Positions 33,994-59,214 of a stretch of 64,000 nt of DNA are shown in pieces. Numbering within the stretch: the stretch's first letter is position 1; each line of letters opens with the position of its first letter. A program made the translations under genes and the position numbers. This DNA is from Formosa sp. Hel1_33_131 (GTDB lineage: Bacteria; Bacteroidota; Bacteroidia; Flavobacteriales; Flavobacteriaceae): contig CATEFX010000021.1 of assembly GCA_949499105.1 (NCBI GenBank), forward strand, positions 84,815-148,814. Direction: 5' to 3'. The notes under the pieces are model-generated. The model was not told the origin of the DNA. It did no database searches and saw only the letters and a program-made list of their open reading frames with translations.

Positions 33994-36312
33994 ATGACAA
34001 TGAAAAATTTATTCAAAAAAATTAAACAAGTTTCGATTTTAATCTTGGCAATCAGTTTTATAGGTTGTGACGATGATGACGCTATTTTGCCAAAACTAAC
34101 AGCTGGCTTTACGCACACAATTAATGCCGATACAGGCACCGTAACGTTTATTAACACGTCCACAAATGCATCGATGTACGCATGGGATTTTGGAGATGAA
34201 ACTTCTTCAGCCCTTATTAACCCGGTGAATGTGTATGAAAACGGAACCTATATTGTGGTTTTAAAATCTTCAAATGTTGCAGGAGCGTTTGATATCTTTA
34301 CCGATGAGATCGTAATTCTAATACCGGAAATCGCCACCTTACCAATTACTTTTGATGGTGAAAACACGAAATACGACCCTACAGTTTTTGATGGGACCAC
34401 CTTTGACATCCTTACAAATCCAGACCTTACAGGCACAAATTCTGTAGAATCAAACGTAGGAGCCATCACAAATAGTGGGGCGACTTATGAAGGTTTGTTT
34501 TTTGAATTAGGGGCCGCAGTCGATTTAACGACTGAAAAATCAATAAAAATGAATTTTTGGTCAGATAAAGCAGTCGATGTTTTATTAAAGCTTGAAGATG
34601 GAACTGCAGCGAACTCCGAAGCAACTGCGAGCCATACCGGAACTGGATGGGAAGAATTGATGTTCACATTTAATTCAGCAGCGAGCTACAACCAATTAAC
34701 GCTCTTTGTAGACGGTGCAGGAACAACCGATGGTACATTCTATTTTGATGATATAATGCAAGTTGTATCGCCTCCAACACCATGTACTCCAGAAACAGTT
34801 GAGTCGCTTGCCGCAGTCGATTTTAATGTCACATTTACGACCGACCCAACAGCAAGTATTGTGAATGATGGGACTACCTTTGAGTGGATTGATAATCCAG
34901 ATTTTAATAACACTGTAAATACATCTTGTAAAGTTGGAAAAATCACAAAACTTGGAACCAACCCTTGGGATAATAACCAAATTGTTTTAGATGCTAAATT
35001 AGATTTAGTTGCCAACCAAGGTTTAAAAATCAAAGTATGGTCTGCTAAAGCAAATACTGAAGTTAGAATTAAGTTAGAAGAAAATGGAACGCCTGCGAAC
35101 TTCACTGAATTATCGTTAACCACCTCCCTAACGAGTGAATGGGAAGAATTAAGCTTTGCTTTTACAGGGGACGATACGGATAAATATGATAAAGTCGTTT
35201 TGTTCTTTGATTTGAATGCAAACAATACCGACACCTATTATTTCGATGATTTAACTTTATACGGAACAGGGACGGCACCAGCGGGGTGTATTGCAGAAAC
35301 AGCACAGTCGCTTAGTGCAGCAAACTTTGAATTAACATTCCAAAACGACCCAACCGCTAGTATTATTTCTGACGGTGCAGGTTTTGCATGGATTGATAAT
35401 CCAGACTTTGATAACACAGTAAATACCTCTTGTAAAGTTGGTCAGATAGACAGAACGAGTGCAGCGCAGTATGCAAACAATCAAATTATTTTAGATGCTA
35501 AATTAGATTTTAACTCAAATTCAGGTTTTAAACTAAAAGTATGGTCACCAACTGCTAGTACAAACGTATTATTAAAATTAGAGGATCAGACTAATTCAGG
35601 TGTTTTTAAAGAAGTTTTTGCAACCACTTCATCAAGCAGCGCAGGTGAATGGGAAGAACTTACTTTTAATTTTACAAGTGCCGATTCTAATAAGTTTGAT
35701 AAAATTGTAGTGTTCTTTGAATTAGATTCAGCCACTGAAGAAACCTATTATATTGACGACCTTAAACTTTACGGCGACGGTTCTGGCGGCGGCGGCGGCG
35801 GCGGTGCATATAACCTTACGCTTCCTATTGATTTTGAGACATCAGGATTTGGAGCAAGTTGGACTTGGAATGTGTTTGAAAATGATTCTAACCCACCAGT
35901 AGAATACGTAACAAATCCAAACGCATCAGGAATAAATACTTCAAATACTGTGGCTAAAATCACGGCACTTCAAGCAGGGCAACCCTGGGTTGGTTGTGAA
36001 ACTGCACATGGCGAAATGGGAATTACGTGGGATCTTTCTGCTTCAAATGCGATCATTAAGATTATGGTTTACAAAACCGTCATTAGTGATGTTGGTATCA
36101 AATTAGTAAATCCTGCCGGAGGTGCACAACCAGAAATCAAAGTTCCAAACACTGTAATTAATGCATGGGAAGAATTAACATTTGATTTTAGCAGTCGTAT
36201 TGGAAATGGATTAGATGGCTCTACAAATATTGATCAAATAGTTGTATTCCCTGATTTCAATGCAAGAACATCAGATAATGTAGTGTATTTCGATAACGTT
36301 ACGTTTCAATAA
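33994..36312 (+). CDS. Multidomain lipoprotein: PKD plus tandem CBM-like domains
   Basis: 772 aa; 'SFIGCDDD' lipobox; PKD 'NTSTNASMYAWDFGDE'; repeated '..ADFN.TF..DPTASI..DG..F.WIDNPDF.NTVNTSCKVG'; Gly6 linker. Confidence 0.75.
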   Translation: MTMKNLFKKIKQVSILILAISFIGCDDDDAILPKLTAGFTHTINADTGTVTFINTSTNASMYAWDFGDETSSALINPVNVYENGTYIVVLKSSNVAGAFDIFTDEIVILIPEIATLPITFDGENTKYDPTVFDGTTFDILTNPDLTGTNSVESNVGAITNSGATYEGLFFELGAAVDLTTEKSIKMNFWSDKAVDVLLKLEDGTAANSEATASHTGTGWEELMFTFNSAASYNQLTLFVDGAGTTDGTFYFDDIMQVVSPPTPCTPETVESLAAVDFNVTFTTDPTASIVNDGTTFEWIDNPDFNNTVNTSCKVGKITKLGTNPWDNNQIVLDAKLDLVANQGLKIKVWSAKANTEVRIKLEENGTPANFTELSLTTSLTSEWEELSFAFTGDDTDKYDKVVLFFDLNANNTDTYYFDDLTLYGTGTAPAGCIAETAQSLSAANFELTFQNDPTASIISDGAGFAWIDNPDFDNTVNTSCKVGQIDRTSAAQYANNQIILDAKLDFNSNSGFKLKVWSPTASTNVLLKLEDQTNSGVFKEVFATTSSSSAGEWEELTFNFTSADSNKFDKIVVFFELDSATEETYYIDDLKLYGDGSGGGGGGGAYNLTLPIDFETSGFGASWTWNVFENDSNPPVEYVTNPNASGINTSNTVAKITALQAGQPWVGCETAHGEMGITWDLSASNAIIKIMVYKTVISDVGIKLVNPAGGAQPEIKVPNTVINAWEELTFDFSSRIGNGLDGSTNIDQIVVFPDFNARTSDNVVYFDNVTFQ

Positions 36313-36623: not shown

Positions 36624-39600
36624 ATGACAAATAACACTATTTTTTTAGATAAAAATAAAGACACCGATCAGGTCAAAGATATTGAAGGTACTTTAGTCAA
36701 TATAGACAATGAAGTCTTTTATAAAATCTCGAACAGTGATAAAATGAGACCATTTTTCATGAGCATTGTGAGTGATTCTAATCATTGGATGTTTATCTCC
36801 AGCAACGGAAGTTTAACCGCTGGAAGAAAAAATTCTGAATTCGCATTATTTCCGTATTACACAGACGATAAGATTACTGAAGCTGCTGAAATTACAGGAA
36901 GTAAATCTATTTTTCAAGTTCATAAAAATAGTAAAACTCATTTATGGGAACCTTTTTCCGATCGTTTTCAAGGGATGCACAACATCACTCGAAATTTGTA
37001 TAAAAACGAGTATGGTAACAAAGTATTATTTGAAGAAATCAACCACGATTTAGGACTGACGTTTCAATACCAATGGAATTCTACAAACACTTTTGGTTTT
37101 ATAAAAAAATCAAAGCTTATCAATACTTCGGATTCAAACGTTGAAATCAATCTATTGGATGGGATTCAAAATATTTTACCTTATGGCGTTGGGAGCGATT
37201 TACAAAATGCAAGTAGTAATCTTGTAGATGCTTACAAACGTAATGAGTTAGAGAAAAGTTCTGGATTAGGGATTTATGCTTTAAGCGCAATTATTGTAGA
37301 TAAGGCGGAACCTAGCGAAGCTTTAAAAGCCAATATTGTTTGGTCCTTAGGATTAGATCAACCTAAACATTTAGTATCGTCTCTTCAAGTTGAATCGTTT
37401 CGGAAAAATCAAGACCTTCAAGAAGAAACCGATGTGAAAGCAGAAAAAGGCGCTTATTTTGTCAATTCAACCATTGTTTTAACGGCTGAAGAAAGCAAAG
37501 AATGGATGCTAGTTGCTGAGGTTAATAAAAATCATTCAGCAATTGCAAAATTGATCCATGAGATTAAAACGAATGACGGTTTATCAGAACTCATCAACCA
37601 GAAAATTGAAAAAGGAACTGAGCGTCTCATTGCTTTAAATGCAGCCTCTGATGGGTTGCAACTTTCAGCAGATAAATTTAGAGATACTCGTCATTTTTCA
37701 AACACCTTATTCAACATCATGCGTGGGGGTATTTTTGATGATAATTATCAAATTGAAAAATGGGATTTTAAAACCTATCTTTTAAAAGCCAATAAAAAAG
37801 TAGCTAGGAAAACAGAGGACTTGGTTGAGAAACTACCTGAAGTGTTCTCACTTTCTGTACTACAAGAATTAGCATATCAAATTGATGACACAAACTTTAG
37901 ACGTTTGTGTTTTGAATACATGCCTTTAAAATTTAGCCGACGACATGGCGATCCGAGCCGTCCTTGGAATAAATTTTCAATCAATACCAAAAGCGAGATT
38001 GATGGTTCAAAAATCCTTGATTACGAAGGAAATTGGCGTGATATTTTCCAAAACTGGGAAGCATTAGCACATTCATACCCGGCGTTTATTGAGAGTATGA
38101 TCCATAAATTTTTAAATGCCACGACTTTTGATGGTTACAATCCGTATCGAGTGACAAAAGGCGGGTTTGATTGGGAAACGATCGAACCAGACGATCCATG
38201 GTCGTACATTGGCTATTGGGGCGATCACCAAGTGATTTATCTATTAAAGTTTTTAGAGTTTATTGAAAATCATCAGCCTGGCAAACTAGCAAGCTATTTT
38301 GATAAAGATATGTTTGTATATGCAAATGTTCCTTACAAAATTAAAAGCTACGACGCACTGCTTGAAAACCCAAAAGATACCATCGAATTTGATGAAGCAT
38401 TGGATCTTAAAATCCGTGAACAAAGAGTTGAACTTGGTGCAGATGGTGCTTTACTTCGAGATGAAAATCGTTTTATTGTAAAAGTCAATTTTATTGAAAA
38501 AATATTAGCAACCACTTTAGCAAAACTTTCAAACTTTATTCCAGAAGGCGGAATTTGGATGAACACACAACGTCCAGAATGGAACGATGCCAACAATGCG
38601 TTAGTTGGAAGTGGCGTATCAATGGTTACTTTGTATTATCTCCGACGTTTCCTTAAGTTTTTTGATACTGTAGTGGTTCAATCAAACTTAGAAACTGTTG
38701 AGGTTTCAAAAGAGTTAGTGACTTTCTTTGATTCTATTTCAACGACCTTTAACGACCATCAACATTTACTGTCGGGTCGAATCAACGATACAGATCGAAA
38801 ATTGATTTTAGATGCCTTAGGAAATGCAGGAAGCAGCTATAGAAATCAAGTTTATAAGAATGCGTTTTCAGGAAGAAAAAATGAAATATCCATCCAAGAT
38901 CTAAAAGCGTTTATAGCCGTGAGTCTTCAATATTTAGAACACTCTATTGAAGCAAATAAACGAGACGATAATTTATACCACGCGTATAATTTAATGACGA
39001 TAAACGATTCTAAGAGCGTTTCAATTTCATATTTAGATGAAATGTTAGAAGGGCAAGTGGCGGTCTTAAGTTCAAAATATTTATCGACCAATCAGTCCTT
39101 ATCTGTGTTGAATGCCATGAAAAGCAGCAAATTGTTCCGACCAGATCAGTATAGCTACTTATTGTATCCTAACAAAGCGTTGAAAGGATTTATTGAGCGA
39201 AATACAATTTCTGCTTCAGCTGTTTCATCCTCTAAATTACTAGAACAGTTAGTGAGCGATGGAAATGTTCAAATTTTAGAGAAAGATGTCAATGGTGCTT
39301 ATCACTTTAATGGGAGTTTTAAAAATGCCATTGATTTAAAAGTCGCTTTAAATGAACTTTCTCAAACATCTTATAAAGAACTCATTGCGTTAGAAACGCC
39401 CAAAATTCTTCAAATTTTTGAAGAGGTCTTCAATCACAAATCGTTTACGGGTCGTTCCGGAACCTTTTATGGATATGAAGGTTTAGGTTCTATTTACTGG
39501 CACATGGTTTCTAAACTACAGTTGTCGGTACTTGAAACCTGTCACGCAGCATTTGAAACGGAAACCAATGAAGCCGTTAGAGGCCACTTATTAGATCATT

Positions 39601-40097
39601 ATTACGAAATCAATGCTGGAATTGGCGTTCACAAATCACCAAAGTTATATGGTGCTTTCCCAACCGATCCTTATTCGCATACCCCTGCAGGCAAAGGCGC
39701 TCAACAACCTGGAATGACAGGTCAGGTAAAAGAAGATGTTTTATCTCGTTTTGGTGAATTTGGAGTGGAAGTTTCGGATGGAAAACTAGGTTTTAATCCT
39801 CGTTTGTTACGTGGAAATGAATTTTTAAAAGAGAGTAAAACATTTCATTACATCGCGCTTCCTAAAAAGAAAAACAGCATTTTAGTTTCCAAAGATTCTT
39901 TGTGTTTTACCTATTGTCAAGTGCCTATTACGTACACAATTTCTGACGAAGAGAGTTTAACGGTAAAATTCAGTAATGGTAATTCAACAACCTTTAAAAC
40001 GTTAAGCTTAGATGCTGAAACGAGTGCACATGTATTTAATCGTACAGGGGATGTTGTAGAACTAAATGTTCACGTTAAAAAGAGTCGTTTAAAATAA
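36624..40097 (+). CDS. GH149-like beta-1,3-glucan phosphorylase (GH94-related), cytoplasmic
   Basis: 1157 aa, no signal peptide; cellobiose-phosphorylase-like N-terminus ('NHWMFISSNGSLTAGRKNSEFALFPYYTDDKI'), 'KGGFDWETIEPDDPWSYIGYWGDHQVIYLLKFLE'; laminarin-type neighbours. Confidence 0.72.
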   Translation: MTNNTIFLDKNKDTDQVKDIEGTLVNIDNEVFYKISNSDKMRPFFMSIVSDSNHWMFISSNGSLTAGRKNSEFALFPYYTDDKITEAAEITGSKSIFQVHKNSKTHLWEPFSDRFQGMHNITRNLYKNEYGNKVLFEEINHDLGLTFQYQWNSTNTFGFIKKSKLINTSDSNVEINLLDGIQNILPYGVGSDLQNASSNLVDAYKRNELEKSSGLGIYALSAIIVDKAEPSEALKANIVWSLGLDQPKHLVSSLQVESFRKNQDLQEETDVKAEKGAYFVNSTIVLTAEESKEWMLVAEVNKNHSAIAKLIHEIKTNDGLSELINQKIEKGTERLIALNAASDGLQLSADKFRDTRHFSNTLFNIMRGGIFDDNYQIEKWDFKTYLLKANKKVARKTEDLVEKLPEVFSLSVLQELAYQIDDTNFRRLCFEYMPLKFSRRHGDPSRPWNKFSINTKSEIDGSKILDYEGNWRDIFQNWEALAHSYPAFIESMIHKFLNATTFDGYNPYRVTKGGFDWETIEPDDPWSYIGYWGDHQVIYLLKFLEFIENHQPGKLASYFDKDMFVYANVPYKIKSYDALLENPKDTIEFDEALDLKIREQRVELGADGALLRDENRFIVKVNFIEKILATTLAKLSNFIPEGGIWMNTQRPEWNDANNALVGSGVSMVTLYYLRRFLKFFDTVVVQSNLETVEVSKELVTFFDSISTTFNDHQHLLSGRINDTDRKLILDALGNAGSSYRNQVYKNAFSGRKNEISIQDLKAFIAVSLQYLEHSIEANKRDDNLYHAYNLMTINDSKSVSISYLDEMLEGQVAVLSSKYLSTNQSLSVLNAMKSSKLFRPDQYSYLLYPNKALKGFIERNTISASAVSSSKLLEQLVSDGNVQILEKDVNGAYHFNGSFKNAIDLKVALNELSQTSYKELIALETPKILQIFEEVFNHKSFTGRSGTFYGYEGLGSIYWHMVSKLQLSVLETCHAAFETETNEAVRGHLLDHYYEINAGIGVHKSPKLYGAFPTDPYSHTPAGKGAQQPGMTGQVKEDVLSRFGEFGVEVSDGKLGFNPRLLRGNEFLKESKTFHYIALPKKKNSILVSKDSLCFTYCQVPITYTISDEESLTVKFSNGNSTTFKTLSLDAETSAHVFNRTGDVVELNVHVKKSRLK

Positions 40098-40112: not shown

Positions 40113-41405
40113 ATGAGAAGATCAAAACAATTATTAGTTTCAACACTGCTTGTTTTTCTCATGGTGTCTTGTAAAAACAAGCAATCAAAACAAAGTACTA
40201 CCAACCAACAATCTCAAAAAGAAGTGACAGCTAAAGATATATTAGGAAATTCAAACTATTTAGCAATCTCTTATGGAGGGTATCGAAAATCGTCTAGAGA
40301 TATTCAACCCACTATTGAAGAGCTAAAGGAAGATATGAGAATTCTTCATGCGATGAATATCAGAATCTTACGCACCTATAATGTTCAATTGGCGCAGGCT
40401 TCAAATATGCTAAAGGCAATTCGAGAACTAAAAAAGGAAATTACTGGTTTTGAAATGTATGTGATGTTGGGAACTTGGATTGATTGTAAAAATGCATGGA
40501 CTGATCAGCCTTTGGACCACCATCAAGAGAGTGAACACAATGCCGCCGAAATTGCACGTGCAATTGCTTTGGCAAATGAGTATCCTGAAATTGTTAAAGT
40601 CATTTCAGTTGGAAATGAAGCCATGGTCAAATGGGCAGCGTCCTATTTTGTGCAACCCGTTGTTATTTTAAAATGGGTCATGCACTTACAAGACTTAAAA
40701 ACAACGGGTGACCTTTCTAAAGACCTTTGGATCACAAGCTCCGATAATTTTGCGTCTTGGGGTGGAGCTGAGTCTCAATACCACGTCGAAGCTCTTGAAA
40801 AACTAATGGCAGCTGTGGATTATGTCTCAGCGCATACCTACCCAATGCACGATACGCATTACAACCCTGTTTTCTGGGGTGTTTTTGGAACTGAGACAGA
40901 ATTGTCAAGTTTAAAACGAATTGAGGTCGCAATGAATCGTGCCACGGACTATGCCGCTTCACAAATTGATAGTGTGGCGAGTTATATGAAACGTTTGGGA
41001 ATTGATAAACCAATTCATGTTGGAGAAACTGGATGGGCAAGTGCTTCAAACCGACAATATGGCTCTAACGGCTCCAAAGCGACGGATGAATACAAGGAAG
41101 CCATTTATTACCACAATATGAGAGTATGGTCTGATGAAACCAAAAGGTCATGTTTCTATTTTGAAGCTTTTGATGAACCTTGGAAAGATGCTCAAAACAT
41201 TGGAGGTTCTGAAAACTATTTTGGCTTGTTTACTGTCGATGGAAAAGCCAAATATGTGCTCTGGGATTTAGTTGATAAAGGAGTTTTTGATGGATTGACG
41301 CGTAATGGAAATCCGATTACAAAAACCTATAATGGCAATAAGGAAGCCTTATTACTAGAGGTCGAATTACCGCCTTTGAAAAATGAAATTATAATGAACC
41401 AATAA
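40113..41405 (+). CDS. GH17 family beta-1,3-glucanase lipoprotein
   Basis: 430 aa; lipobox 'LMVSCK'; 'ISVGNEAMVKW' and 'HVGETGWAS' catalytic motifs. Confidence 0.88.
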   Translation: MRRSKQLLVSTLLVFLMVSCKNKQSKQSTTNQQSQKEVTAKDILGNSNYLAISYGGYRKSSRDIQPTIEELKEDMRILHAMNIRILRTYNVQLAQASNMLKAIRELKKEITGFEMYVMLGTWIDCKNAWTDQPLDHHQESEHNAAEIARAIALANEYPEIVKVISVGNEAMVKWAASYFVQPVVILKWVMHLQDLKTTGDLSKDLWITSSDNFASWGGAESQYHVEALEKLMAAVDYVSAHTYPMHDTHYNPVFWGVFGTETELSSLKRIEVAMNRATDYAASQIDSVASYMKRLGIDKPIHVGETGWASASNRQYGSNGSKATDEYKEAIYYHNMRVWSDETKRSCFYFEAFDEPWKDAQNIGGSENYFGLFTVDGKAKYVLWDLVDKGVFDGLTRNGNPITKTYNGNKEALLLEVELPPLKNEIIMNQ

Positions 41406-41406: not shown

Positions 41407-42894
41407 ATGAATCGTATAAAAATATATCACCTTTTAATTTTAGTAGGAATGCTCACAGCATGTACAACCAAACAACCCTTACAAGTCACCGTGTACGAAA
41501 CGTCTGCGAGTGGAAATAAATTAACTGAAATCTCAGAATTTAGCACGTCAGAAAACGCCTCTGAAATAGGGCTTTTTCCAGATAAGACCTACCAGACAAT
41601 CACTGGTTTTGGGGGCTCATTCACCGAATCATCAGCCTATTTACTAAATCGTTTGAGTAAAAAAAATAGAGCCCTAATACTCGATGCTTATTTTAGTAAA
41701 AAAGGGGCAAATTATTCATTGACGCGAACCCACATTAGTTCCTGTGATTTTTCATTATCAAATTACACCTATGCGCCAATTGCCGATGATCTGGAGTTAA
41801 AACATTTTAGCGTCGAAGAAGATGAAGCCGATTTAATTCCGATGATCAAAGAGGCGATGGCGGTCTCTGAAGATGGTTTTAAAATTATAGCATCGCCATG
41901 GACAGCACCGCCTTGGATGAAAGACAATAATAAATATGTTGGCGGAAAATTAGTAGATGAACACTACGGTACTTTCGCCTTGTTTTTCTCAAAATATTTA
42001 GACGCCTACAAAGCAGAAGGCATTGATATTTGGGGGTTAACGCCTGTAAATGAGCCGCATGGAAATGGTAACAACTGGGAAAGCATGCACTTTTCACCAG
42101 AAGAAGAAACCGATTTTGTACAAAATCATTTAGGTCCCACACTTGAAGCCAATGGAAATGGAGCGACCAAAATACTTGGATACGATCAAAACAGAGCGGG
42201 TCTAAAGGAATGGGTCGATTCAATGTTTAAGGACGAAGCTTCATCAAAGTATTTTGATGGGACAGCCATTCATTGGTACGAAAGTACTTTTGATTATCTC
42301 CCAGAAGCTTTGCAGTATGCACACAAAAAAGCACCCAATAAATATCTGATCGAAACGGAAGGCTGTGTAGATTCAGAAATTCCTAAATGGCAAGATGATG
42401 CTTGGTATTGGAAAAAAGAATCCACAGATTGGGGCTGGGATTGGGCGCCGCCACAAGACAAACATTTACACCCTAAATATGCGCCTGTCAATCGCTATGC
42501 AAGAGATATCATTGGTTGCCTAAACAATTGGGTCGATGGATGGGTCGATTGGAACATGGTGCTCGATAGACAAGGCGGTCCAAACTGGTTTAAAAACTGG
42601 TGCGTCGCTCCCGTAATCGTAGATCCAGATAACGATGAAGTCTATTTCACGCCTTTATATTACACAATGGCACATTTTAGTAAATACATGCGTCCTGGGG
42701 CTCAAATCATTGATGTCAAAAATACAGATGCTTCTTTAATGGTAACAGCTGCTAAAAATCCTGATGGATCGATTGCAGTGATTATTTTTAATGAAGGAGA
42801 AAATTTAAAAACTTTTGAACTTTCCTTGGGAGATGCTTCAAAATCAATATCCATACAACCACAAGCAATTCAAACAATACTACTCACTAACTAA
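41407..42894 (+). CDS. GH30 family beta-glucosidase / beta-1,6-glucanase lipoprotein
   Basis: 495 aa; 'TGFGGSFTESSAYLL', 'GLTPVNEPHG', 'LIETEGCVD'; starts one base after the previous stop. Confidence 0.92.
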   Translation: MNRIKIYHLLILVGMLTACTTKQPLQVTVYETSASGNKLTEISEFSTSENASEIGLFPDKTYQTITGFGGSFTESSAYLLNRLSKKNRALILDAYFSKKGANYSLTRTHISSCDFSLSNYTYAPIADDLELKHFSVEEDEADLIPMIKEAMAVSEDGFKIIASPWTAPPWMKDNNKYVGGKLVDEHYGTFALFFSKYLDAYKAEGIDIWGLTPVNEPHGNGNNWESMHFSPEEETDFVQNHLGPTLEANGNGATKILGYDQNRAGLKEWVDSMFKDEASSKYFDGTAIHWYESTFDYLPEALQYAHKKAPNKYLIETEGCVDSEIPKWQDDAWYWKKESTDWGWDWAPPQDKHLHPKYAPVNRYARDIIGCLNNWVDGWVDWNMVLDRQGGPNWFKNWCVAPVIVDPDNDEVYFTPLYYTMAHFSKYMRPGAQIIDVKNTDASLMVTAAKNPDGSIAVIIFNEGENLKTFELSLGDASKSISIQPQAIQTILLTN

Positions 42895-42906: not shown

Positions 42907-45243
42907 ATGTCAACACATTCAGAAAAAGTTCCCTTCGGCCAAAAAATAGCCTTTGGCATTGGCATGCTTGCAAACCAAATGTTTCCAGCTGCATTGGGAA
43001 TCTTTATGGTGGTCTTAGTTCAAGATTTAGGGTTTCCAGGTTGGATGTGGGGTGTTATTTATTTTTTCCCAAGAATATTTGATTGTTTTACGGACCCAAT
43101 CATGGGTTTTATTTCTGATAACACAAAATCACGATGGGGTAGACGTCGACAATATGTAATTTTTGGTGGTCTTATGATGGGAATTGCATTTATCATTATG
43201 TGGCAACTTTTCAGAGAAAATGGTGTCGATTATAATTTTGTTTACTTCATGATTTGGTCGTTTGTATTTTACTTAGGATTGACCATTTTTAGTGTGCCTT
43301 ATGTCGCAATGGGGTATGAGATGAGTAATGATTTTCATGAGCGTACGAGTATTATGGCAACTGCTCAATGGATTGGCCAATGGGCATGGGTGATCGCACC
43401 CTGGTTTTGGGTGATTATGTATGATCCATCTTGGTTTGAATCGGCAGAAGTTGCGACTCGATCCCTTGCTTTTTGGGTCGGTATCGTTTTTACAATTTGC
43501 GCTCTTGTTCCTGGTATATTTATTAAAAGTAAATCCACATTAAATGAAGACTATTCTCCTCTAAATTTAAAAAATATTGGAAATAGTTTAAAAGAAATAG
43601 GTTCTGGTTTTTCAAGTGCTTTTAAAATGAAACCATTTAGAAAACTATGTATCGCTACTTTTTTAGTGTATAACGCTTTTATGACAATTGCATCATTTTC
43701 ATTCTTTATCATTGTTTATCATCTTTTTGAAGGCGATGCAGGTGCTGCCGGGATATGGCCAACGCTATTTGGGTGTTTAGGAGCCCTTGGAACTACTTTT
43801 TTGGTTATTCCGATCGTGACGCGTATGTCAAAAAATATGGGTAAAAAGAAAGCCTTTTTGATATCACAGGGAATTTCTGTTCTAGGGTATATAATGTTAT
43901 GGTTTCTCTTTATTCCAGGTAAACCTTATATGTTCATTTTTGCTCTCCCATTTTTCTCCTTTGGTATCGGAAGTCTATTTGTATTAATGATGTCTATGAC
44001 AGCAGATGTGATTGATCTAGATGAACTTAAGACGGGATTGAGAAGAGAAGGTACCTTTGGTGCGATCTACTGGTGGATGGTAAAATTTGGTTTTGCTATT
44101 GCTGGAGGATTAAGCGGCGTTATTATGAGTTCAGTAGGATTTGACTCAGGAGTTACTGTTCAACCAGAAGGGGCTATCGATGGATTGCGATTATCGTTTT
44201 CAGGGATTCCAATTCTTGGAACGGTCATAGCCATGCTTGTGATGCGCAATTATAGCGTTACAGAAGAAAGTGCTGGAATCGTTCGAGCTGAATTAGATAA
44301 ACGCAACAATTTATCACAAAACCCAACCTCTTTTTATCAAACCGATAAATTAGGTTCTTTAGTAGATTCAGGCCTCCAAATTGACAGCTCAACAGAGATT
44401 GATTTCACATCCAAAACGGATGCTGAAATTAAAGCCTTGTTTTCAACACATTTAAATAAGGGTCTTCATGGGTTGTGTTTTAGCCCCTATTTAGAAGGAC
44501 AAAATATTGGGGATCAATTATCTAAATCACAAATTAGTCAACGAATGGACATTATTGCGCCTTACACCAATTGGGTGCGTTCTTTTTCTTGTACAGAGGG
44601 GAATGAGCAGACTCCAAAAATCGCGCATAAAAAACACTTAAAAACAATGGTGGGTGCTTGGATCAGTGATGATAAAGATCAAAACGAAAAAGAAATTAAT
44701 GCGCTAATCAATCTTGCAAAATTTGGTTTGGTTGATATTGCAGTGGTAGGAAATGAAACGTTAATGCGAGAAGAATTAACAGAAAACGAACTACTTGAAT
44801 ATATACATCGTGTCAAACAAGCGATTCCGGGAGTTCCTGTGACTTATGTAGATGCCTATTATCAGTTTATTGAGCGGCCTCAACTTATCGACGCTTGTGA
44901 TGTTATTTTAGTGAACTGTTATCCATTTTGGGAAGGCTGTAGTATTGAGCAATCGGCAACGTATCTAAAGCAAATGTATGCGGTGACTCAAAAAGCAGCG
45001 AAAGGCAAACAAGTCATTATTTCAGAAACTGGGTGGCCAAACCAAGGTGACAGCACGAAAGATGCGCAGCCTTCTGAAATTAATGCGATGAAATATTTTA
45101 TAAATACAACCAATTGGGCGCAACAAAATGAAGTGCCACTATTTTATTTTTCTTCTTTTGATGAATCCTGGAAAGTCCATCATGAAGGCGATGTTGGAGC
45201 TCGATGGGGACTTTGGGATACCAACGAAAAATTAAAATTTTAA
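42907..45243 (+). CDS. MFS/GPH-family sugar transporter fused to C-terminal GH17 domain
   Basis: 778 aa; residues ~1-455 polytopic ('FPRIFDCFTDPIMGFISDNTKSRWGRRRQYV'); residues ~480-778 GH17-like ('AVVGNETLMREEL', 'VIISETGWPNQG'). Confidence 0.88.
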   Translation: MSTHSEKVPFGQKIAFGIGMLANQMFPAALGIFMVVLVQDLGFPGWMWGVIYFFPRIFDCFTDPIMGFISDNTKSRWGRRRQYVIFGGLMMGIAFIIMWQLFRENGVDYNFVYFMIWSFVFYLGLTIFSVPYVAMGYEMSNDFHERTSIMATAQWIGQWAWVIAPWFWVIMYDPSWFESAEVATRSLAFWVGIVFTICALVPGIFIKSKSTLNEDYSPLNLKNIGNSLKEIGSGFSSAFKMKPFRKLCIATFLVYNAFMTIASFSFFIIVYHLFEGDAGAAGIWPTLFGCLGALGTTFLVIPIVTRMSKNMGKKKAFLISQGISVLGYIMLWFLFIPGKPYMFIFALPFFSFGIGSLFVLMMSMTADVIDLDELKTGLRREGTFGAIYWWMVKFGFAIAGGLSGVIMSSVGFDSGVTVQPEGAIDGLRLSFSGIPILGTVIAMLVMRNYSVTEESAGIVRAELDKRNNLSQNPTSFYQTDKLGSLVDSGLQIDSSTEIDFTSKTDAEIKALFSTHLNKGLHGLCFSPYLEGQNIGDQLSKSQISQRMDIIAPYTNWVRSFSCTEGNEQTPKIAHKKHLKTMVGAWISDDKDQNEKEINALINLAKFGLVDIAVVGNETLMREELTENELLEYIHRVKQAIPGVPVTYVDAYYQFIERPQLIDACDVILVNCYPFWEGCSIEQSATYLKQMYAVTQKAAKGKQVIISETGWPNQGDSTKDAQPSEINAMKYFINTTNWAQQNEVPLFYFSSFDESWKVHHEGDVGARWGLWDTNEKLKF

Positions 45244-45261: not shown

Positions 45262-46170
45262 ATGTCATACAGAGAAGATCGAAAATTTTCACCAAAACAA
45301 ATCGAACACCCCAAAAAGTCAGTCGTTGAAGTTCCTAAACAACCCGAAATTCGTTTAGAAGAACGATGGCGAAACACGTTGAATAATGGGATGCATGGGT
45401 TGTGTTTTAGTATGTATGAAGATGGTCAAGGCCCTGGAAATGAAATTTCAGAAGCTCAAGTAGATCGACGGATGCAAATCATAAAGTCTCACACCAAATG
45501 GGTGCGTTCCTTTTCGTGTATTGAAGGAAATGAACACATCCCCCGTGTTGCTCATAAACATGGCATTAAAACCTTGGTGGGTGCTTGGCTCGGCGACGAT
45601 TTAGAAAAAAATGAAGAAGAAATTGAAGCCTTAATTAAATTAGCAAAAGAAGGCTATGTAGATATTGCTGCTGTTGGTAATGAAGTCATGTACCGTGAAG
45701 ACCTTACAGAAGAACAGTTGTTAGAGTATATCAATAGAGTCAAAAAAGCGTTACCTGGTATCCCAGTTGGGTATGTTGATGCGTATTATGAATTTTCACA
45801 CCGACCAAAAATCACTAAAGCATGCGATGTGATTTTAGCAAATTGCTATCCGTATTGGGAAGGCTGCCCTATTCATTATTCAATAGCCCATATGAAAAAA
45901 ATGTTTGACCAAGCCACCGAAGCGGGACAAGGGAAAAAAGTAATTATTACTGAAACGGGTTGGCCAAGCGAAGGTGGTAGTTTAAGAGGGGCCTTTGCCT
46001 CTCGTGAAAATGCGATGAACTATTTCATAAACACCCAAGAATGGGCTGAAAATAATAATGTCGAGTTCTTTTATTTCTCCTCTTTTGACGAATCTTGGAA
46101 AGTAGGCGCCGAAGGCGATGTTGGAGCCTATTGGGGACTTTGGGATAAAAATGAACAGTTAAAATTCTAA
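45262..46170 (+). CDS. Stand-alone GH17 protein without signal peptide, paralogous to the C-terminus of the upstream fusion
   Basis: 302 aa; 'AAVGNEVMYRED', 'VIITETGWPSEGG'; extensive similarity to residues 480-778 of the 42907-45243 product. Confidence 0.9.
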   Translation: MSYREDRKFSPKQIEHPKKSVVEVPKQPEIRLEERWRNTLNNGMHGLCFSMYEDGQGPGNEISEAQVDRRMQIIKSHTKWVRSFSCIEGNEHIPRVAHKHGIKTLVGAWLGDDLEKNEEEIEALIKLAKEGYVDIAAVGNEVMYREDLTEEQLLEYINRVKKALPGIPVGYVDAYYEFSHRPKITKACDVILANCYPYWEGCPIHYSIAHMKKMFDQATEAGQGKKVIITETGWPSEGGSLRGAFASRENAMNYFINTQEWAENNNVEFFYFSSFDESWKVGAEGDVGAYWGLWDKNEQLKF

Positions 46171-47430: not shown

Positions 47431-48018
47431 ATGACTTCCAATAGAAAAATAAAAGATACTGATTTAGTAAAAAGGCTTCATAATAATGATCAAGCCGCTC
47501 TAGCTATTATTTATAAAGAGCACTGGGAAATAATGTATTTGGCAGCCTATAACTTATTGAGAGATAAGTCTATTAGTGAGGACATTGTTCAGGATGTATT
47601 TGTGTCTTTCTGGCAAAAAAGAAATACATTAGAAATTAAAGTATCTATCAGGAGTTATCTATATACTAGTACCACTTATAAGGTTTACGACTATTTTAGA
47701 AAAAACAAAAAAATGATTAAAGAGGAGCTTTTTAATCATTTTGATGAAAAAGTCCAAGTTTCAAATCCAGAAACTAAACTTATGCATAAAGAATTAGTGG
47801 GTTTTATAGATTCTCTAATTAATCAGCTACCTCCAAAATGCAAGGAAGTTTTTAAATTAAGCAGAGAAGAACAGTTGACTAATCAAGAGATAGCGCAACG
47901 ATTAAGTGTTTCCAAAAGAACAGTGGAAGGGCATATTACTAAAGCCTTAATGCTTTTAAGAAATTCGTTAGGAGTTAATGTTAGTATTGAATTTATGTCA
48001 TTTATTTCCAATTACTAG
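47431..48018 (+). CDS. RNA polymerase ECF sigma factor (sigma-70 family)
   Basis: 195 aa; 'SEDIVQDVFVSFWQKRNTL', 'LPPKCKEVFKLSREEQLTNQEIAQRLSVSKRTVEGHITKAL'. Confidence 0.93.
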   Translation: MTSNRKIKDTDLVKRLHNNDQAALAIIYKEHWEIMYLAAYNLLRDKSISEDIVQDVFVSFWQKRNTLEIKVSIRSYLYTSTTYKVYDYFRKNKKMIKEELFNHFDEKVQVSNPETKLMHKELVGFIDSLINQLPPKCKEVFKLSREEQLTNQEIAQRLSVSKRTVEGHITKALMLLRNSLGVNVSIEFMSFISNY

Positions 48019-48107
48019 TTACCATTCCTTTAAACTTAAAAAAAAAACAACAACAAAGCAGGTGTGCTTCAATTTTATTACGTCATGTATATATAAGAAC
48101 GTAAGAA

Positions 48108-49271
48108 ATGATGAATTTAAAGCCGAAGCAGTACTTTATACAATTATTAAACAAACTCTTTGATGATTCTATTACCAACAAAGAACTTGAAAAACTATCT
48201 CATTTTTTTCTTAATAATCAAGAGCTTTTAAATTGGCCTCAACATTTTGGCTCTAAAATCGAAATAGAAGCAAGAATCTTTAACAAGATACAATCTGATA
48301 TAAATTCAGGGCTATTAAAAGAAAACAAAATTATTCCTCTTTACAAAAAATATTTATTTAAATATGCCGTAGCGTCGTCTGTAGTACTTTTAATTTCATT
48401 AACATATATTTTAAACAGAGATAATACTTCAATCACAACCAATCCTATACTAGTAAATACCAATATTATTGAACCCGGTAAAGACAAAGCAACGCTTACT
48501 TTAGAAGATGGGTCTATAGTCGCTTTGGAGAAGGGGAATACTTACCAAATCCAAAACGCTAGCAGTAATGGTGAGAAATTAGTATATGATTCTGGAGCAA
48601 AAACTTCAAAAAAGATTGTATATAATTATCTGACTGTGCCTAGAGGAGGTCAATTTCATATTATTTTATCAGATGGTACTCAAGTATGGTTAAATTCAGA
48701 ATCTCAATTAAAATATCCAGTATTATTTAATGAAGAGGACAGTAGGAAAGTAGAATTAGTATATGGTGAAGCCTATTTTGATGTGTCTCCGAGTTCTGAA
48801 CACAAAGGTTTGAAATTCAAAGTTTTCAATCAATCTCAAGAAGTGGAGGTTTTTGGTACAGAGTTTAATATAAAAGCTTACAAAGACGACACTAAAATTT
48901 ATACCACATTGGTAGAAGGAAAAGTAACTGTAAATATTGGAAATTTAAAACAAAGCTTATTACCTAGTCAGCAATTAAGCCTAAACCGCAAAACTAATAA
49001 TACTACCGTAAACTATGTTGATGTCTTCAACGAGGTGTCGTGGAAAGATGGGGTGTTTAGTTTTGAGAATATACCACTTAAAGAGATGATGAAAGTTTTA
49101 TCACGATGGTATGATGTAGAGGTATTATTTAAAAATAAATCAATTGAGAATGAGCAGTTTGTGGGGGTATTAAGAAAAAGTCAAAACTTAGAAGAGATAC
49201 TTTTAAGTATTGAAAATTTTAAGATTATAAAAAATCATGAAATCAAAGACAAGAAAGTAATTCTTGAATAA
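48108..49271 (+). CDS. FecR-family anti-sigma factor
   Basis: 387 aa; one TM; 'TVPRGGQFHIILSDGTQVWLNSESQLKYPV...VEVFGTEFNIKAY'. Confidence 0.93.
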   Translation: MMNLKPKQYFIQLLNKLFDDSITNKELEKLSHFFLNNQELLNWPQHFGSKIEIEARIFNKIQSDINSGLLKENKIIPLYKKYLFKYAVASSVVLLISLTYILNRDNTSITTNPILVNTNIIEPGKDKATLTLEDGSIVALEKGNTYQIQNASSNGEKLVYDSGAKTSKKIVYNYLTVPRGGQFHIILSDGTQVWLNSESQLKYPVLFNEEDSRKVELVYGEAYFDVSPSSEHKGLKFKVFNQSQEVEVFGTEFNIKAYKDDTKIYTTLVEGKVTVNIGNLKQSLLPSQQLSLNRKTNNTTVNYVDVFNEVSWKDGVFSFENIPLKEMMKVLSRWYDVEVLFKNKSIENEQFVGVLRKSQNLEEILLSIENFKIIKNHEIKDKKVILE

Positions 49272-49368
49272 AAAAATGGAACGAAGTAAAAACATTTCGC
49301 GGTGTCATGAACTTCGTCCCTTATAACGTATTAATTAAACTAATGTATAAATAACACAAAGCAAATTT

Positions 49369-52300
49369 ATGGAAATTAAATTACTTAATGCCTGTTCTCT
49401 GTATAGAAAACGGCTACAGAAAATTATTATGAATGTATTTATCTTTTTAATGTGTACAACCGCTTTTTGTCTTTCATCAGACAATACGTTTTCTCAAGAG
49501 AAGGTAATGATAAAAAAAGATCAATTAGTCACTGTTGATCAGGTGTTTAAAATTATTAAAAAACAAACAGATTTTAACTTTGTTTACCCTAGACGTATTT
49601 TTAAGGATAAACATAAAGTACAGCTTAAAAAAGGAGAGATTACAGTTTTGAAACTATTAGAGCAAAGCTTAGTTAGTAATAATCTCAATTTCGAGCTAAC
49701 AGCAAATAATACTATTTTAATTATAGAAAAACCTGTTGTTAATGACGTTAAATTACAGTATCAAGTTACAGGTACTTTAAAAGATGAAGCTGGTCAGCCC
49801 TTGCCAGGAGCAAATATCTTAGAGAAAGGAACAACCAATGGAGTTCAAACAGATTTTGATGGTAATTTTTCCATTTCTGTTAAAGACGAAAATGCAACGC
49901 TAGTGATTTCTTACTTAGGATTTTTTACAGATGAAGTCCTTTTAAATGGACAAACTACCATTAGTATAGTATTAAAAGAGGATACTGCAAAGTTAGACGA
50001 AGTTGTGATTGTAGGGTTTGGAACTCAGAAAAAAATTAATCTTACCGGAGCTGTTTCAACTATTAATAGTAAGGAACTAGCCAACAGACCCATAACCAGT
50101 GCAAGTCAAGCACTTCAGGGAGTTCAGGGCGTGTATGTAAATCAAGTGGGAGGACAACCAGGAAGCGATGGAGCAACAATTCGAATACGAGGTCTTGGGA
50201 CACTGGGTGATAACGACCCTTTGGTTTTAGTAAATGGAATAGAGTTTTCTATAGATGATTTAAATCCGGATGATATTGAAAGTATTACTGTATTAAAGGA
50301 TGCGGCATCCGCTGCAATTTATGGGTCTCGTGCGGCTAATGGTGTTGTTTTAGTTACATTAAAGAAAGGTTCTCAAAAATCAGAAATCACGTATAGTGGA
50401 TCAGTTGGTGTGCAGCAAGTCATCTCATTACCAAAAGTTATCAAGGATCCAATCCAGTGGATGAAATTATATTCTCAAGCACAGTTAAATTTTGGAACAG
50501 ACGAGAGTGCATTGGTGTTTCCACAATCTTTAATAGATGAATATAGTGCAGGTATGTTGACAGATCCTTTCACCTACCCTAACAACGATTGGATGAAAAT
50601 AATGTTTGATCAGGCTATTATTCAGCAACATAGCCTAAGATTTTCCGGTGGTAATGAAAAGACAACCTATGGACTTTCGCTTTCTATGTTAGCTCAAGAT
50701 GGTGTGCTGAGAGGGACAAAATCAAAAAGATATAATGCCAGCTTAAATCTTAACTCAAAGCTGAATAATAAAATTACTATTGGGGGCACTTTCAATGTTT
50801 CCCGTAAAAAAAGAGTAGAACCAGTTGTGGGTGTTCCAGAGACTATACAAATGATTTATAAGGCGCAACCCTATCATCCTACCTACCTTGAAGATGGAAA
50901 TTATGGAATGAATTTTTTCGATATCCCGGGTCATCGCAGATTCCGTAATCCTTTAGCTCTTACTGATGAGGGAAATAATGATCATAGAAATTTAAAATTG
51001 TTCCTAAATTCTTTTGCAGAAATTAAACTTCCCTTTGGTCTAGTTTATAAACTAAATATTGGTGTCACTAGTGAGGCTGAGCAACAAAAACGGTTCATCC
51101 CACAAATAGTTTTATATGATGCTAAAACGAAAGAACCAACTACAATTCAAGCAGGAGGATCTCCGAATATCACTTTTGCAGGAGGACAAAGAGGGGTATT
51201 TCAAAGAGATGAAGAACAGCTTAATACGACCATTTTTAATACGTTGAAATGGAATAAATCTTTTAATGAAGAAACAGAGTTTTCGATTCTGCTTGGAAAT
51301 AGCTACGAAAATTTCAAATATAATTTCTTTTCTGCAGCCAACGAGGGTTACCTCAATAATGATCTTTTTGAACTCAATGCGGGGAGTATCAATCCTTCTG
51401 TGAAAGGTAGAAGTGAGGAAAATAGTATCATATCATACTTTGGTCGTGCCAACTATGTATTGAATAATAAGTATTTGTTTGAGGCAAATTTCCGTTATGA
51501 TGGTTCGTCACGTTTTGCAAAGGGTAACAAGTGGGGCTTTTTCCCATCAATTTCTGCAGGATGGCGTTTAGACCAAGAAAACTTATTAAAGGATATAGAT
51601 TGGTTAGGACAATTGAAAATTAGGTCATCATGGGGTCAACTAGGTAATGAGAGAATCGGTTTATTCCGTTACTTAGATTTGATATCTTCAGGAAAAAATT
51701 ATTTTTTTGGAAACAATTTAAATGCAGGGACGGCAGTTACAGTAGATAATGATACTTCAATATCATGGGAGACAACAACAATTACTAATTTAGGAGTAGA
51801 TGCTAGTTTTTTTGGCGGCAAACTCTCTACTAGCATGGAATACTTTGTAAAAACAACCAAAGATGTATTGAGACCAATTTCTATTCCTACTCAAGTCGGA
51901 GCACTAGATGGGCCAATCACTAACATAGGAACAATAGAAAATAAAGGAATTGAACTTGCGTTGGGATATCGTAATTCAATCGGAGATTTCAGGTATGATA
52001 TATCTGGTGATTTTACAAGTATAACAAATAAAGTAATAGATCTTAAGAGTGAGGTAATTATAGAGAATTATACATCTGATGGAAGAGGCCCATTGATGAT
52101 AACACAAGAGGGGAGTCCAATAAACCAATTCTTACTGTATCAGTCCGATGGATTATTCCAATCACAAGCTGAGATTGATGCACACCCCTATCAAGGACCC
52201 GATACAAAACCGGGATATATTCGTTACAAAGATTTGGATAACAATGGAGTAATAGATTTAAATGATAGAAAAGCGACGGGCAGTACTACACCAAAATACA

Positions 52301-52776
52301 CCTATTCTTTTAATATTAACTTAGCATATAAAAACTTTTCATTAAGTACTTTTTGGCAGGGTGTTGGAGATGTTCAAACCTATAATAACCATGTTACGGG
52401 TGTTCCATTTTGGTTTGGTACCGCTTTAACATCAGAATGGGCAACCGATTCTTGGACTCCTCAAAATACAGGTGCAAGATTACCAATACTTACAAGGTAT
52501 CAAGATGCAGTAACCACTTTATACAGGGGTAGTGATCTTTTTCTCGAAGACGCTTCATATCTTCGATTAAAAAACATACAGTTAACGTATGATTTGAATT
52601 CAGCTTTGTTAAATCAAATAGGAATTAGTAAACTGTCCGTTTTTTGTAACGCTCAAAACCTACTTACATTTACTTCTTTAAAACATTTTGATCCAGAAAC
52701 AGATTTACTAAGTGGGGATTTTTTCGATTACCCATCTACAAAAATTTATAGCTTAGGCTTTAACGTATCATTTTAA
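49369..52776 (+). CDS. SusC/RagA-family TonB-dependent outer-membrane transporter with N-terminal STN domain
   Basis: 1135 aa; STN-like N-terminus, 'VTGTLKDEAGQPLPGANILEKGTTNGVQTDFDGNFSI', plug 'VVIVGFGTQKKINLTGAVS...RGLGTLGDNDPLVLVNG', C-terminal barrel. Confidence 0.96.
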   Translation: MEIKLLNACSLYRKRLQKIIMNVFIFLMCTTAFCLSSDNTFSQEKVMIKKDQLVTVDQVFKIIKKQTDFNFVYPRRIFKDKHKVQLKKGEITVLKLLEQSLVSNNLNFELTANNTILIIEKPVVNDVKLQYQVTGTLKDEAGQPLPGANILEKGTTNGVQTDFDGNFSISVKDENATLVISYLGFFTDEVLLNGQTTISIVLKEDTAKLDEVVIVGFGTQKKINLTGAVSTINSKELANRPITSASQALQGVQGVYVNQVGGQPGSDGATIRIRGLGTLGDNDPLVLVNGIEFSIDDLNPDDIESITVLKDAASAAIYGSRAANGVVLVTLKKGSQKSEITYSGSVGVQQVISLPKVIKDPIQWMKLYSQAQLNFGTDESALVFPQSLIDEYSAGMLTDPFTYPNNDWMKIMFDQAIIQQHSLRFSGGNEKTTYGLSLSMLAQDGVLRGTKSKRYNASLNLNSKLNNKITIGGTFNVSRKKRVEPVVGVPETIQMIYKAQPYHPTYLEDGNYGMNFFDIPGHRRFRNPLALTDEGNNDHRNLKLFLNSFAEIKLPFGLVYKLNIGVTSEAEQQKRFIPQIVLYDAKTKEPTTIQAGGSPNITFAGGQRGVFQRDEEQLNTTIFNTLKWNKSFNEETEFSILLGNSYENFKYNFFSAANEGYLNNDLFELNAGSINPSVKGRSEENSIISYFGRANYVLNNKYLFEANFRYDGSSRFAKGNKWGFFPSISAGWRLDQENLLKDIDWLGQLKIRSSWGQLGNERIGLFRYLDLISSGKNYFFGNNLNAGTAVTVDNDTSISWETTTITNLGVDASFFGGKLSTSMEYFVKTTKDVLRPISIPTQVGALDGPITNIGTIENKGIELALGYRNSIGDFRYDISGDFTSITNKVIDLKSEVIIENYTSDGRGPLMITQEGSPINQFLLYQSDGLFQSQAEIDAHPYQGPDTKPGYIRYKDLDNNGVIDLNDRKATGSTTPKYTYSFNINLAYKNFSLSTFWQGVGDVQTYNNHVTGVPFWFGTALTSEWATDSWTPQNTGARLPILTRYQDAVTTLYRGSDLFLEDASYLRLKNIQLTYDLNSALLNQIGISKLSVFCNAQNLLTFTSLKHFDPETDLLSGDFFDYPSTKIYSLGFNVSF

Positions 52777-52787
52777 ATTAAAAAATC

Positions 52788-54296
52788 ATGAAAAAAATTC
52801 AATATATATTTATTTTACTTTGTGGATGTTTATTATCCCTAAGTTGTTCGGATGATTTAATAGCAAAATTACCTTTAGATCAGAATAATGTTGAGTCCTT
52901 TTGGACCTCAGAAACCAATGTATCATCAGCTATTACGGGGTGTTATCAGCAATTGATAGAGCCTTATAAATCCCCTTGGACATGGAAGCTTGAAGACATA
53001 ACCCCTAATGCATATGAAATAGACGGCAGGGATAGTTCCAGAGAAATATCCCTTGGATTAAACAGTCCTACGAATCAAGTTCCTAAACAGCGTTATAAAA
53101 TTTGTTATCGAGGTATAGGAAGAGCAAACACAGTTTTGAATAATATAGATTTGGTTCCTATGGACGAAAGTTTGAAAAACCGCTATAAAGCTGAAGCCCG
53201 ATTTTTGAGAGCTTTCTTTTATCATAATCTAATAGAATTTTTTGGAGGTGTGCCGTTAATATTAGATGCCCCAGATAATAATACACAAGGACAATTACCT
53301 AGAAATACAAAGGCAGAAGTTTTAGATGTAATTTATACAGATTTGGATGCTGCTATTGCTGGTTTACCAATTTCTTATGCTGCTGCAGACAAAGGAAGAA
53401 TAACAAAAGGGACAGCACTTGCTTTTAAGGCTAGAACAGCTCTTTATAACATGGATTGGACTGAAGCTCTGTCTGCAGCTCAGGCAGTAGTTGATTTAAA
53501 TGTGTATGCTCTTTTTCCAGATTACCGAAGACTGTTTCTAGTAGAAAATGAAAGAAATGACGAAGTTATATTTGATATTGGATTCACAATGCCAGAAGTT
53601 TCTAATAATTATCACGAAATGTATATTGAAGGGAATGTACTGAAAGATTTACCGGATTCTTATTTAATGACAGATGGAAAACCGGCAGAGATTTCAAGTT
53701 TATATAACCCCTTGAATCCTTATGCAAACAGAGACCCACGTTTAAACCAAACTTTAATAACTTTGGGGTCAATGTATAATGGTAATTTGGTTACCGGGAA
53801 TGAATTGTTTATGGATCTTACTGGTTTTTCTTTCAAAAAATATACTTATTTATTAGATGATGCTGGTGGGGTTGCTCCTCTTCCTGGTCAATCTGAAATA
53901 AACCCAATAGTAATTCGTTATGCGGAAGTTTTACTAACTATTGCTGAAGCTGAAAATGAGCTTAACGGACCTACGGTTAGAGCTTATGATGCCATCAACC
54001 AGGTAAGAAATAGACCCTCGGTGAACATGCCTGATGTTACCCCTGGGTTAAGTCAAGAGGATTTTCGAGACGCTCTTCGTCTGGAAAGAAGGATTGAGTT
54101 TGCAGGTGAAGGATTGTATTTTAATGACATTATTCGATGGCGAACAGCAGAAACTGTAATGAATGCTGATGGCCTTGACAGTGAGGGACAATTAATTGAA
54201 ACCCGTAGGTTCAATCCCCAAAGAGATTATTTATGGCCAATTCCGCAGGCAGATATTTTATTGAACACTAATTTAGAACAAAACCCTGGGTATTAA
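52788..54296 (+). CDS. SusD/RagB-family nutrient-binding lipoprotein
   Basis: 502 aa; 'LSLSCSDD' lipobox; 'EARFLRAFFYHNLIEFFGGVPLIL'; 'RFNPQRDYLWPIPQADILLN'. Confidence 0.96.
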   Translation: MKKIQYIFILLCGCLLSLSCSDDLIAKLPLDQNNVESFWTSETNVSSAITGCYQQLIEPYKSPWTWKLEDITPNAYEIDGRDSSREISLGLNSPTNQVPKQRYKICYRGIGRANTVLNNIDLVPMDESLKNRYKAEARFLRAFFYHNLIEFFGGVPLILDAPDNNTQGQLPRNTKAEVLDVIYTDLDAAIAGLPISYAAADKGRITKGTALAFKARTALYNMDWTEALSAAQAVVDLNVYALFPDYRRLFLVENERNDEVIFDIGFTMPEVSNNYHEMYIEGNVLKDLPDSYLMTDGKPAEISSLYNPLNPYANRDPRLNQTLITLGSMYNGNLVTGNELFMDLTGFSFKKYTYLLDDAGGVAPLPGQSEINPIVIRYAEVLLTIAEAENELNGPTVRAYDAINQVRNRPSVNMPDVTPGLSQEDFRDALRLERRIEFAGEGLYFNDIIRWRTAETVMNADGLDSEGQLIETRRFNPQRDYLWPIPQADILLNTNLEQNPGY

Positions 54297-54407
54297 ATAT
54301 TTTTTTTTCAGTTAGTTAGATTGAATTATGCTCCAAGACCTATTTGTCTTGGGGTTTAATTTTTTTGATTCATTTTTTAACATTTATACCCTTAAAATTA
54401 ATACAAA

Positions 54408-55808: not shown

Positions 55809-55992
55809 CCACTATTGGCAGCCTTTCTATTAGTTGTTCCTTTATAATGCCAAAGAACATCAAATGATATTTTCAAAGTTTTTTATGACTTTAGTCCACA
55901 GTTAGTTGTGCATGTATAAAGACAATAAAGTAAATAGCTTAATACACAAAAGTGGTTAGGTCACCCACCCACATCAAGAGCATAAGAGACTG

Positions 55993-56034
55993 CCTTCAAA
56001 GACTGTTAATCTAACGATTAACAGTCTTTTTTTT
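55993..56034 (+). terminator. Rho-independent terminator-like hairpin
   Basis: 'gactgttaatctaacgattaacagtctttttttt'. Confidence 0.85.
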
Positions 56035-56176
56035 GGTAAGTTTTTGGTAAGTTTTTGGTTGTTTTCATAAACTTTTGCAACGACTTGAAAAAGATCATAT
56101 TTCACTAAGGCTTTACTAATTTTGTTTGTAGTGGTAGAACACATAGATTATGAAGGGGAGTAGAAGTGGGTAAAGT

Positions 56177-56346
56177 TTCTAATGCGATCACAAATATAAT
56201 TCTGATTTATTTTTAACTTCATGTATTTTTAACTGATAGGCAGGGTTTTCTGTTTCTTTTAAGTCCGTTTACAGTCAGTTTATTTTATCTTTTTGTTTCA
56301 TTATTATTTCACCTAGTCAAAAAAATAGTTGACCTCTTTACAGCTA
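56177..56346 (+). repeat. ~170-bp imperfect direct repeat, copy B
   Basis: 'ttctaatgcgatcacaaatataatt...agggttttctgtttcttttaagtccgttta...ttacagct' aligns to 47119-47288. Confidence 0.85.
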
Positions 56347-56392
56347 TGAAATACCACTGATGTGACGCTTACTAATAACAAAAAATTTAGTT

Positions 56393-57115: not shown

Positions 57116-57243
57116 TATACAATTTTTTATTTTTTCACCTATGTGATTCCTCTAGTTCAAGTTATATTAACTAGTCATTAATTGTAACGAATAAAACGTG
57201 TTACAATATGTTCAAATATTTTAATTTTTGATGCAATTCAAAC

Positions 57244-57344
57244 ATGCAAAATAAAGGCTATGCGACGAATAAAATTAGACAGATAACTAATGCATCGAGT
57301 TGAACGTTAAAAAACTTAAATATGCAACCAAACGAATACTTAAA
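57244..57344 (+). repeat. Left arm of ~100-bp inverted repeat flanking the two-component cassette
   Basis: Aligns without gaps to the reverse complement of ~59115-59214; 27-bp identical core acgaataaaattagacagataactaat (57265-57291), plus 'gttgaacgttaaaaaacttaaa' and 'atgcaaccaaa'. Confidence 0.88.
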
Positions 57345-57385
57345 ATACTTCTTGGATGTTTTAACATATATATAAGTTGTGTAGA

Positions 57386-59139: not shown

Positions 59140-59214
59140 TTTTAAGTTTTTTAACGTTCAACGTGATATATTAGTTATCTGTCTAATTTTATTCGTAGTA
59201 CAGCGTTTTTTTTG
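59115..59214 (-). repeat. Right arm of ~100-bp inverted repeat (kinase promoter/start region)
   Basis: See 57244-57344. Confidence 0.88.

Follow-up and report, generated by a model that had tools for sequence, protein, structure and literature searches.

Can a sugar transporter and a glycoside hydrolase that are encoded as one polypeptide form a real protein of laminarin use and, if so, on which side of the membrane does the enzyme part work, and on what? The question is raised by a gene in a Formosa genome assembly (GCA_949499105.1), of which a stretch of 64,000 nucleotides, hereafter called the window, was analysed. A protein of this kind has been described before. According to Unfried et al. 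2018 (PMC6246565), FORMB_24740 (FbGH17B) of Formosa sp. Hel1_33_131 consists of an N-terminal MFS transporter and a GH17 domain. The GH17, studied as recombinant material, is reported to be an exo-beta-1,3-glucosidase that releases glucose and accepts only debranched laminarin, acting together with FbGH30 and FbGH17A in one cascade, and the fusion is called common in marine Flavobacteriia (PMC6246565). The architecture and the activity are already published there, as is a key residue difference (PMC11005184). What is added here is the wider spread of the fusion (Cyclobacteriaceae, Saprospiraceae and others), a distinct branch of fused GH17 domains with a lost Tyr, a second transporter lineage and the context of a cytosolic pathway.

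The fusion gene and its locus

The gene (42907-45243, forward strand) is a single ORF of 778 aa, running from ATG to stop with zero internal stops. A sequence-only reading had seen in it one unbroken polypeptide with an MFS/GPH-type transporter and a GH17-like domain that keeps both candidate catalytic Glu residues, and the ORF scan, the profiles and the folds given below agree with it. Pfam places MFS_2 (PF13347) at aa 16-453 with 222.7 bits against a cut-off of 27, and Glyco_hydro_17 (PF00332) at aa 688-778 with 47.5 bits against a gathering score of 28.2. From the N-terminus onwards, a GPH/MelB-type transporter part with 12 TM helices (aa 9-450; 42931-44256) is followed by a C-terminal helix (aa 453-469, predicted to be cytosolic) and a flexible linker (aa ~451-504), which together occupy 44257-44418, and by the GH17 domain (aa 505-778; 44419-45240), all on the forward strand. 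Codons 446-511, which span the junction, contain no in-frame ATG, GTG or TTG, and therefore a start for a standalone GH17 is not available in the fusion gene.

An AlphaFold2 model of the 778-aa protein, built on an alignment of 43 fused relatives, has a mean pLDDT of 83.5 and a pTM of 0.62. It consists of 12 membrane helices, the extra helix 453-469, a low-confidence linker at 469-478 (pLDDT < 50) and an alternating alpha/beta domain. The final 29 residues are of low confidence, yet this stretch is highly conserved among fusions, and the poor modelling is put down to the shallow alignment. By sequence, the transporter part is closest to MFSD2A and MelB, and Foldseek returns the same two proteins for the model (by target, TM 0.84 for MelB and 0.80 for MFSD2A). 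For the GH17 part, the nearest solved structure in a sequence search is 4wtp, a Rhizomucor miehei beta-1,3-glucanosyltransferase (E 8e-32), and the fold matches 4wtr/4wtp with TM 0.82 by target (Foldseek). The fused domain thus has two catalytic Glu (E617/E707) on a TIM barrel as judged by this fold match, its last 29 residues being poorly modelled. This enzyme, RmBgt17A (PDB 4wtp, 4wtr), is the closest solved GH17 by both fold and sequence, but it is fungal, is not fused to a transporter and has the acceptor-site Tyr102.

On the same strand, the fusion gene is preceded by three genes. The first encodes a GH149 beta-1,3-glucan phosphorylase of 1157 aa in which no signal peptide is seen (36624-40097; NCBIfam NF058639, 1800.7 bits, cut-off 1150). 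It is followed by a secreted lipoprotein-like GH17 at the FbGH17A/MlGH17A position (40113-41405; PF00332, 36.7 bits; lipoprotein-type N-terminal signal ...LMVSC) and by a GH30 at the FbGH30 position (41407-42894; PF02055, 268.7 bits) with a lipoprotein-type N-terminus, MNRIKIYHLLILVGMLTAC. The published FbGH17B (AOR29491.1) is likewise an MFS-GH17 fusion whose gene, within a laminarin PUL, comes after those for GH17A and GH30, the same gene order as in the window, and GH149 and GH16 are reported for the laminarin loci of that strain (PMC6246565). With its N-terminal MFS and C-terminal GH17 in one polypeptide and its place after GH17A and GH30, the window protein is, by sequence and gene order, an orthologue-like further member of the FbGH17B class. 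Its identity to the copy in genome G010, probably that of the published strain, is 78%.

Other genes of the window may be recorded here. Next to SusC/D genes and a GH16, 33994-36312 encodes a lipoprotein-like product of 772 aa that combines a PKD domain with several CBM4_9-like repeats resembling one another; it probably binds glycans at the cell surface. What looks like a second polysaccharide locus (47431-63392) comprises sigma factor-like and FecR-like regulators, a SusC/SusD-like pair, a sulfatase (54408-55808), a GH92 (59244-61502) and an SSF symporter (61515-63392), a gene set that hints at a sulfated substrate containing mannose. An aromatic amino acid lyase gene (HAL/PAL family) lies at 14959-16497.

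Two kinds of GH17 domain

A GH17 tree and a residue survey covered 205 related domains, namely 94 fused, 89 standalone and 22 from unfused loci, with quick or FastTree trees. Ninety-three of the 94 fused domains (F-type) fall on one branch (support 0.919), and the opposite side of the tree (support 0.965) holds 89/89 standalone domains (S-type), 22/22 unfused-locus domains and the fused exception L122. The identity between F-type and S-type is about 55%. In L122 (G100:C1:1288000-1292500; ORF 1384-3846, minus strand) the same transporter type is joined to an S-type GH17 that keeps the acceptor-site Tyr and replaces the usual F-type.

The two kinds also differ at the acceptor site. The position of Tyr136 of MlGH17B is occupied by Tyr in 82 of the 89 standalone and 20 of the 22 unfused-locus domains, as against 2 of the 94 fused ones, and the catalytic Glu pair and the Trp191/Glu192 positions are unchanged in all 205. 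In the window's fused domain, the predicted acid/base E617 (44755-44757; VGNET) and the predicted nucleophile E707 (45025-45027; SETGWP) align with Glu133 and Glu223 of MlGH17B (PMC11005184). From the Tyr/Trp/Glu triad of the acceptor site, the Trp and the Glu are kept and the Tyr is replaced by Met620 (44764-44766), the role of this position being taken from PMC11005184; FbGH17B also has Met there (PMC11005184). Seven standalone GH17s have Leu for the acceptor Tyr (L041, L043, L044, L047, L048, L038 and L098), and the loss of the Tyr is therefore not limited to fusions.

Directly after the fusion, the window carries an S-type gene of its own (45262-46170, forward strand). The 302-aa product, in which no signal peptide is seen, is 58% identical to the fused domain, keeps the Tyr and is of the MlGH17B-like transglycosylase type. 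Since most of its 294-aa standalone relatives have E133, Y136, W191, E192 and E223 at the exact MlGH17B numbers, it is most likely this gene, and not the fused domain, that corresponds to MlGH17B in the window. MlGH17B of Muricauda lutaonensis (PMC11005184) shares with the fused domain the GH17 type, the lack of a signal peptide and the laminarin locus type, but it stands alone as a protein, has Tyr136 and is active as a transglycosylase. PMC13188888 and PMC11005184 set MlGH17B against the fused FbGH17B, and the GH17 tree suggests that these two are paralogues.

It is unlikely that the fused domain is itself an MlGH17B-like transglycosylase, which would remodel imported oligosaccharides into a branched storage glucan. 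Such a role would suit the shared GH17 type, the level of identity between the two kinds and the conserved Trp191 and Glu192 positions, and PMC11005184 leaves room for undetected transglycosylation. However, the Tyr136 position is non-Tyr in 92 of the 94 fused domains, Ala at the acceptor Tyr position abolishes transglycosylation by RmBgt17A (PMC11005184), although inactivity of Met or Leu is not thereby proven, and FbGH17B is reported to be an exo-hydrolase yielding glucose (PMC6246565). The earlier proposal that the domain could act on beta-1,3-glucan oligosaccharides during entry, by trimming or remodelling them, fits these data. Of the two, trimming is the more likely, since an exo-hydrolase is what has been published for the orthologue and the window protein has Met in place of the Tyr needed for transglycosylation.

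Transporter class and side of the membrane

The transporter part scores 178.8 bits with the GPH profile TIGR00792, under the curated cut-off of 231.35, and PF13347 is far above its own cut-off. The Asp pair of the MelB cation site (TM2) aligns with D59 and D63 of the fusion, both invariant in 43 fusions. Asp19 and Asp124, sugar-site residues of MelB, are not conserved in the aligned fusion transporter, as expected for a different sugar. Both termini of MelB lie inside. With TM helices assigned from the structure model, the mean K+R count is 25.3 in the loops predicted to be inside and 2.6 in those predicted to be outside, so that 12 TM helices with both termini inside are predicted, as in the GPH/MelB group. 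The MelB melibiose permease (GPH; PDB 4m64, 9old) is alike in fold, in its 12 TM helices and in the cation-site Asp pair, but has no enzyme domain.

The neighbourhood of the transporter gene bears on the same question. The phylum was sampled evenly with 399 genomes. A match to the fusion protein at 1e-60 occurs in 47 of them, and 15 of these 47 carry the fused architecture. GH149 is present in 47/47 genomes with a match, compared with 23/352 others (Fisher p 4e-44, inflated by shared ancestry), and it lies on the same strand as the transporter gene and within 8.6 kb in 47/47 genomes, within 3.2 kb in 15/15 fused ones. Such constant linkage is expected if oligosaccharides enter intact and are then used in the cytosol. 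The product of 36624-40097 is a clear member of the GH149 beta-1,3-glucan phosphorylases (PMC5827456, PMC6484121) and thus a constant neighbour of the transporter, but it is encoded by a partner gene, outside the fusion polypeptide.

Since the predicted topology is C-in and a GH149 gene lies so close in all 15 fused genomes of the phylum sample, the fused GH17 domain is most likely cytosolic, acting on imported oligosaccharides. The cytosolic C-terminus assumed from the letters alone is in line with this prediction. A periplasmic GH17 part, cutting oligosaccharides before uptake so that the transporter would import glucose or laminaribiose, is very unlikely. PMC6246565 does propose coupled hydrolysis and uptake and regards the periplasm as the likely site of two enzymes, and its text gives no side for the fusion. 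Against it stand the 12 predicted TM helices and the strong positive-inside bias, the MelB fold of the transporter part (also that of MFSD2A), and the S-type GH17s adjoining the fusion, whose N-termini, by inspection, carry no visible signal peptide in the loci examined. L122, a separate case in which the transporter is fused to an S-type GH17, also speaks against it.

Distribution and origin of the fusion

Within the genus, the fusion was found in 10 of the 18 genomes sampled, and in an eleventh, G006, it is interrupted by contig ends. Copies in G001 are 98% and 93% identical. GTDB species genomes were scanned with the GH17 domain as query, and in the best 80 named loci, which were kept, the GH17 is joined to a transporter in 80/80, 5 being incomplete at the transporter end. 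Among these loci, Flavobacteriaceae are represented by Formosa, Tenacibaculum, Mariniflexile, Dokdonia, Kordia, Psychroflexus, Flavobacterium and others. Outside this family, the loci come from Cyclobacteriaceae (Algoriphagus, Aquiflexum, Lunatimonas), Saprospiraceae, Flammeovirgaceae, Microscillaceae and a Ferruginibacter MAG. Overall, 94 fused GH17 domains were collected. Some relatives, also within the genus, have separate genes, which might suggest that the gene in the window is broken or an artefact of assembly or frameshift. This can be set aside almost with certainty: it is refuted by the conservation of the fusion across several families in all of the best 80 named loci, by the same joined architecture at 99% identity in a second assembly of the genus, an independent MAG (G014/L024), and by the invariant catalytic residues. 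The MFS-GH17 fusion in the window is a real, conserved and functional-looking protein.

Some genomes of the genus have a bare transporter followed by an S-type GH17 gene (G008, G016 and G017 were checked). Simple fission does not account for the three that were checked, as the GH17 beside the bare transporter is S-type and not F-type. Because this S-type gene is the one that elsewhere follows the fusion, these genomes lack the F domain and do not carry it as a gene of its own; it was apparently lost or never present. The fused domain is therefore not essential to the pathway.

The fused transporters form two lineages, that of the window and that of Psychroflexus/Mesohalobacter and kin. In the second, F-type GH17 domains sit on a GPH transporter that is about 44% identical (L055, L066, L078, L088, L091, L092, L095, L099 and L136). 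An AU test on the transporter tree rejects the grouping of all fusions in one clade (p 2e-39). Mean identities of transporter and GH17 are 70% and 63% within the window's lineage, and 44% and 60% between the lineages. A linker motif of the SFYQT-KL-SL type is in part common to the fusions on both transporters. As the GH17 parts are almost as close between as within lineages, the transporters are not, and the linker motif is partly shared, the simplest reading of the sequences is that linker and GH17 were transferred together onto the second transporter, or in the reverse direction. An AU test of Psychroflexus-type GH17 domains nested inside the others gave p 0.46, which is compatible with either order of events; the case for transfer is made mainly by the identity levels. 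It is less likely that the fusion is old and was lost many times.

No free-standing F-type GH17 was found among the best 80 GTDB loci. The fused GH17 may be a cytosolic subfamily of its own, found nowhere but on transporters, with a single origin from a transglycosylase-type GH17 that lost the acceptor Tyr and afterwards moved with its linker to the second GPH lineage (Psychroflexus/Mesohalobacter), an account in which we place about as much doubt as trust.

Proposed role in laminarin use

Taken as a whole, the protein is probably a cation-coupled importer of the GPH/MelB type for short laminari-oligosaccharides, carrying a cytosolic GH17 exo-hydrolase on a flexible C-terminal tether. In such a pathway, outside the inner membrane, the secreted GH16, GH17A and GH30 would cleave laminarin and remove its branches, and the transporter part would bring in unbranched beta-1,3-oligosaccharides. 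The tethered GH17 would shorten these as they emerge, which may keep free substrate low at the exit, and the remainder would be processed by the soluble GH149 phosphorylase and the standalone transglycosylase-type GH17 of the same locus. Exo-hydrolysis by the window's fused domain is suggested by analogy with FbGH17B, and we infer the transported substrate, the cation coupling and the kinetic benefit of the tether.

Few marine polysaccharides are as abundant as laminarin, whose uptake and breakdown the fusion unites in a single protein. The comparison yields natural fused and unfused pairs within one genus and two transporter lineages that bear the same enzyme domain, and the Tyr136 position separates most fused from most standalone enzymes. 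If the proposed single origin and transfer are true, the F-type GH17 would be a portable 'mouth enzyme', selected for its position at the transporter exit.
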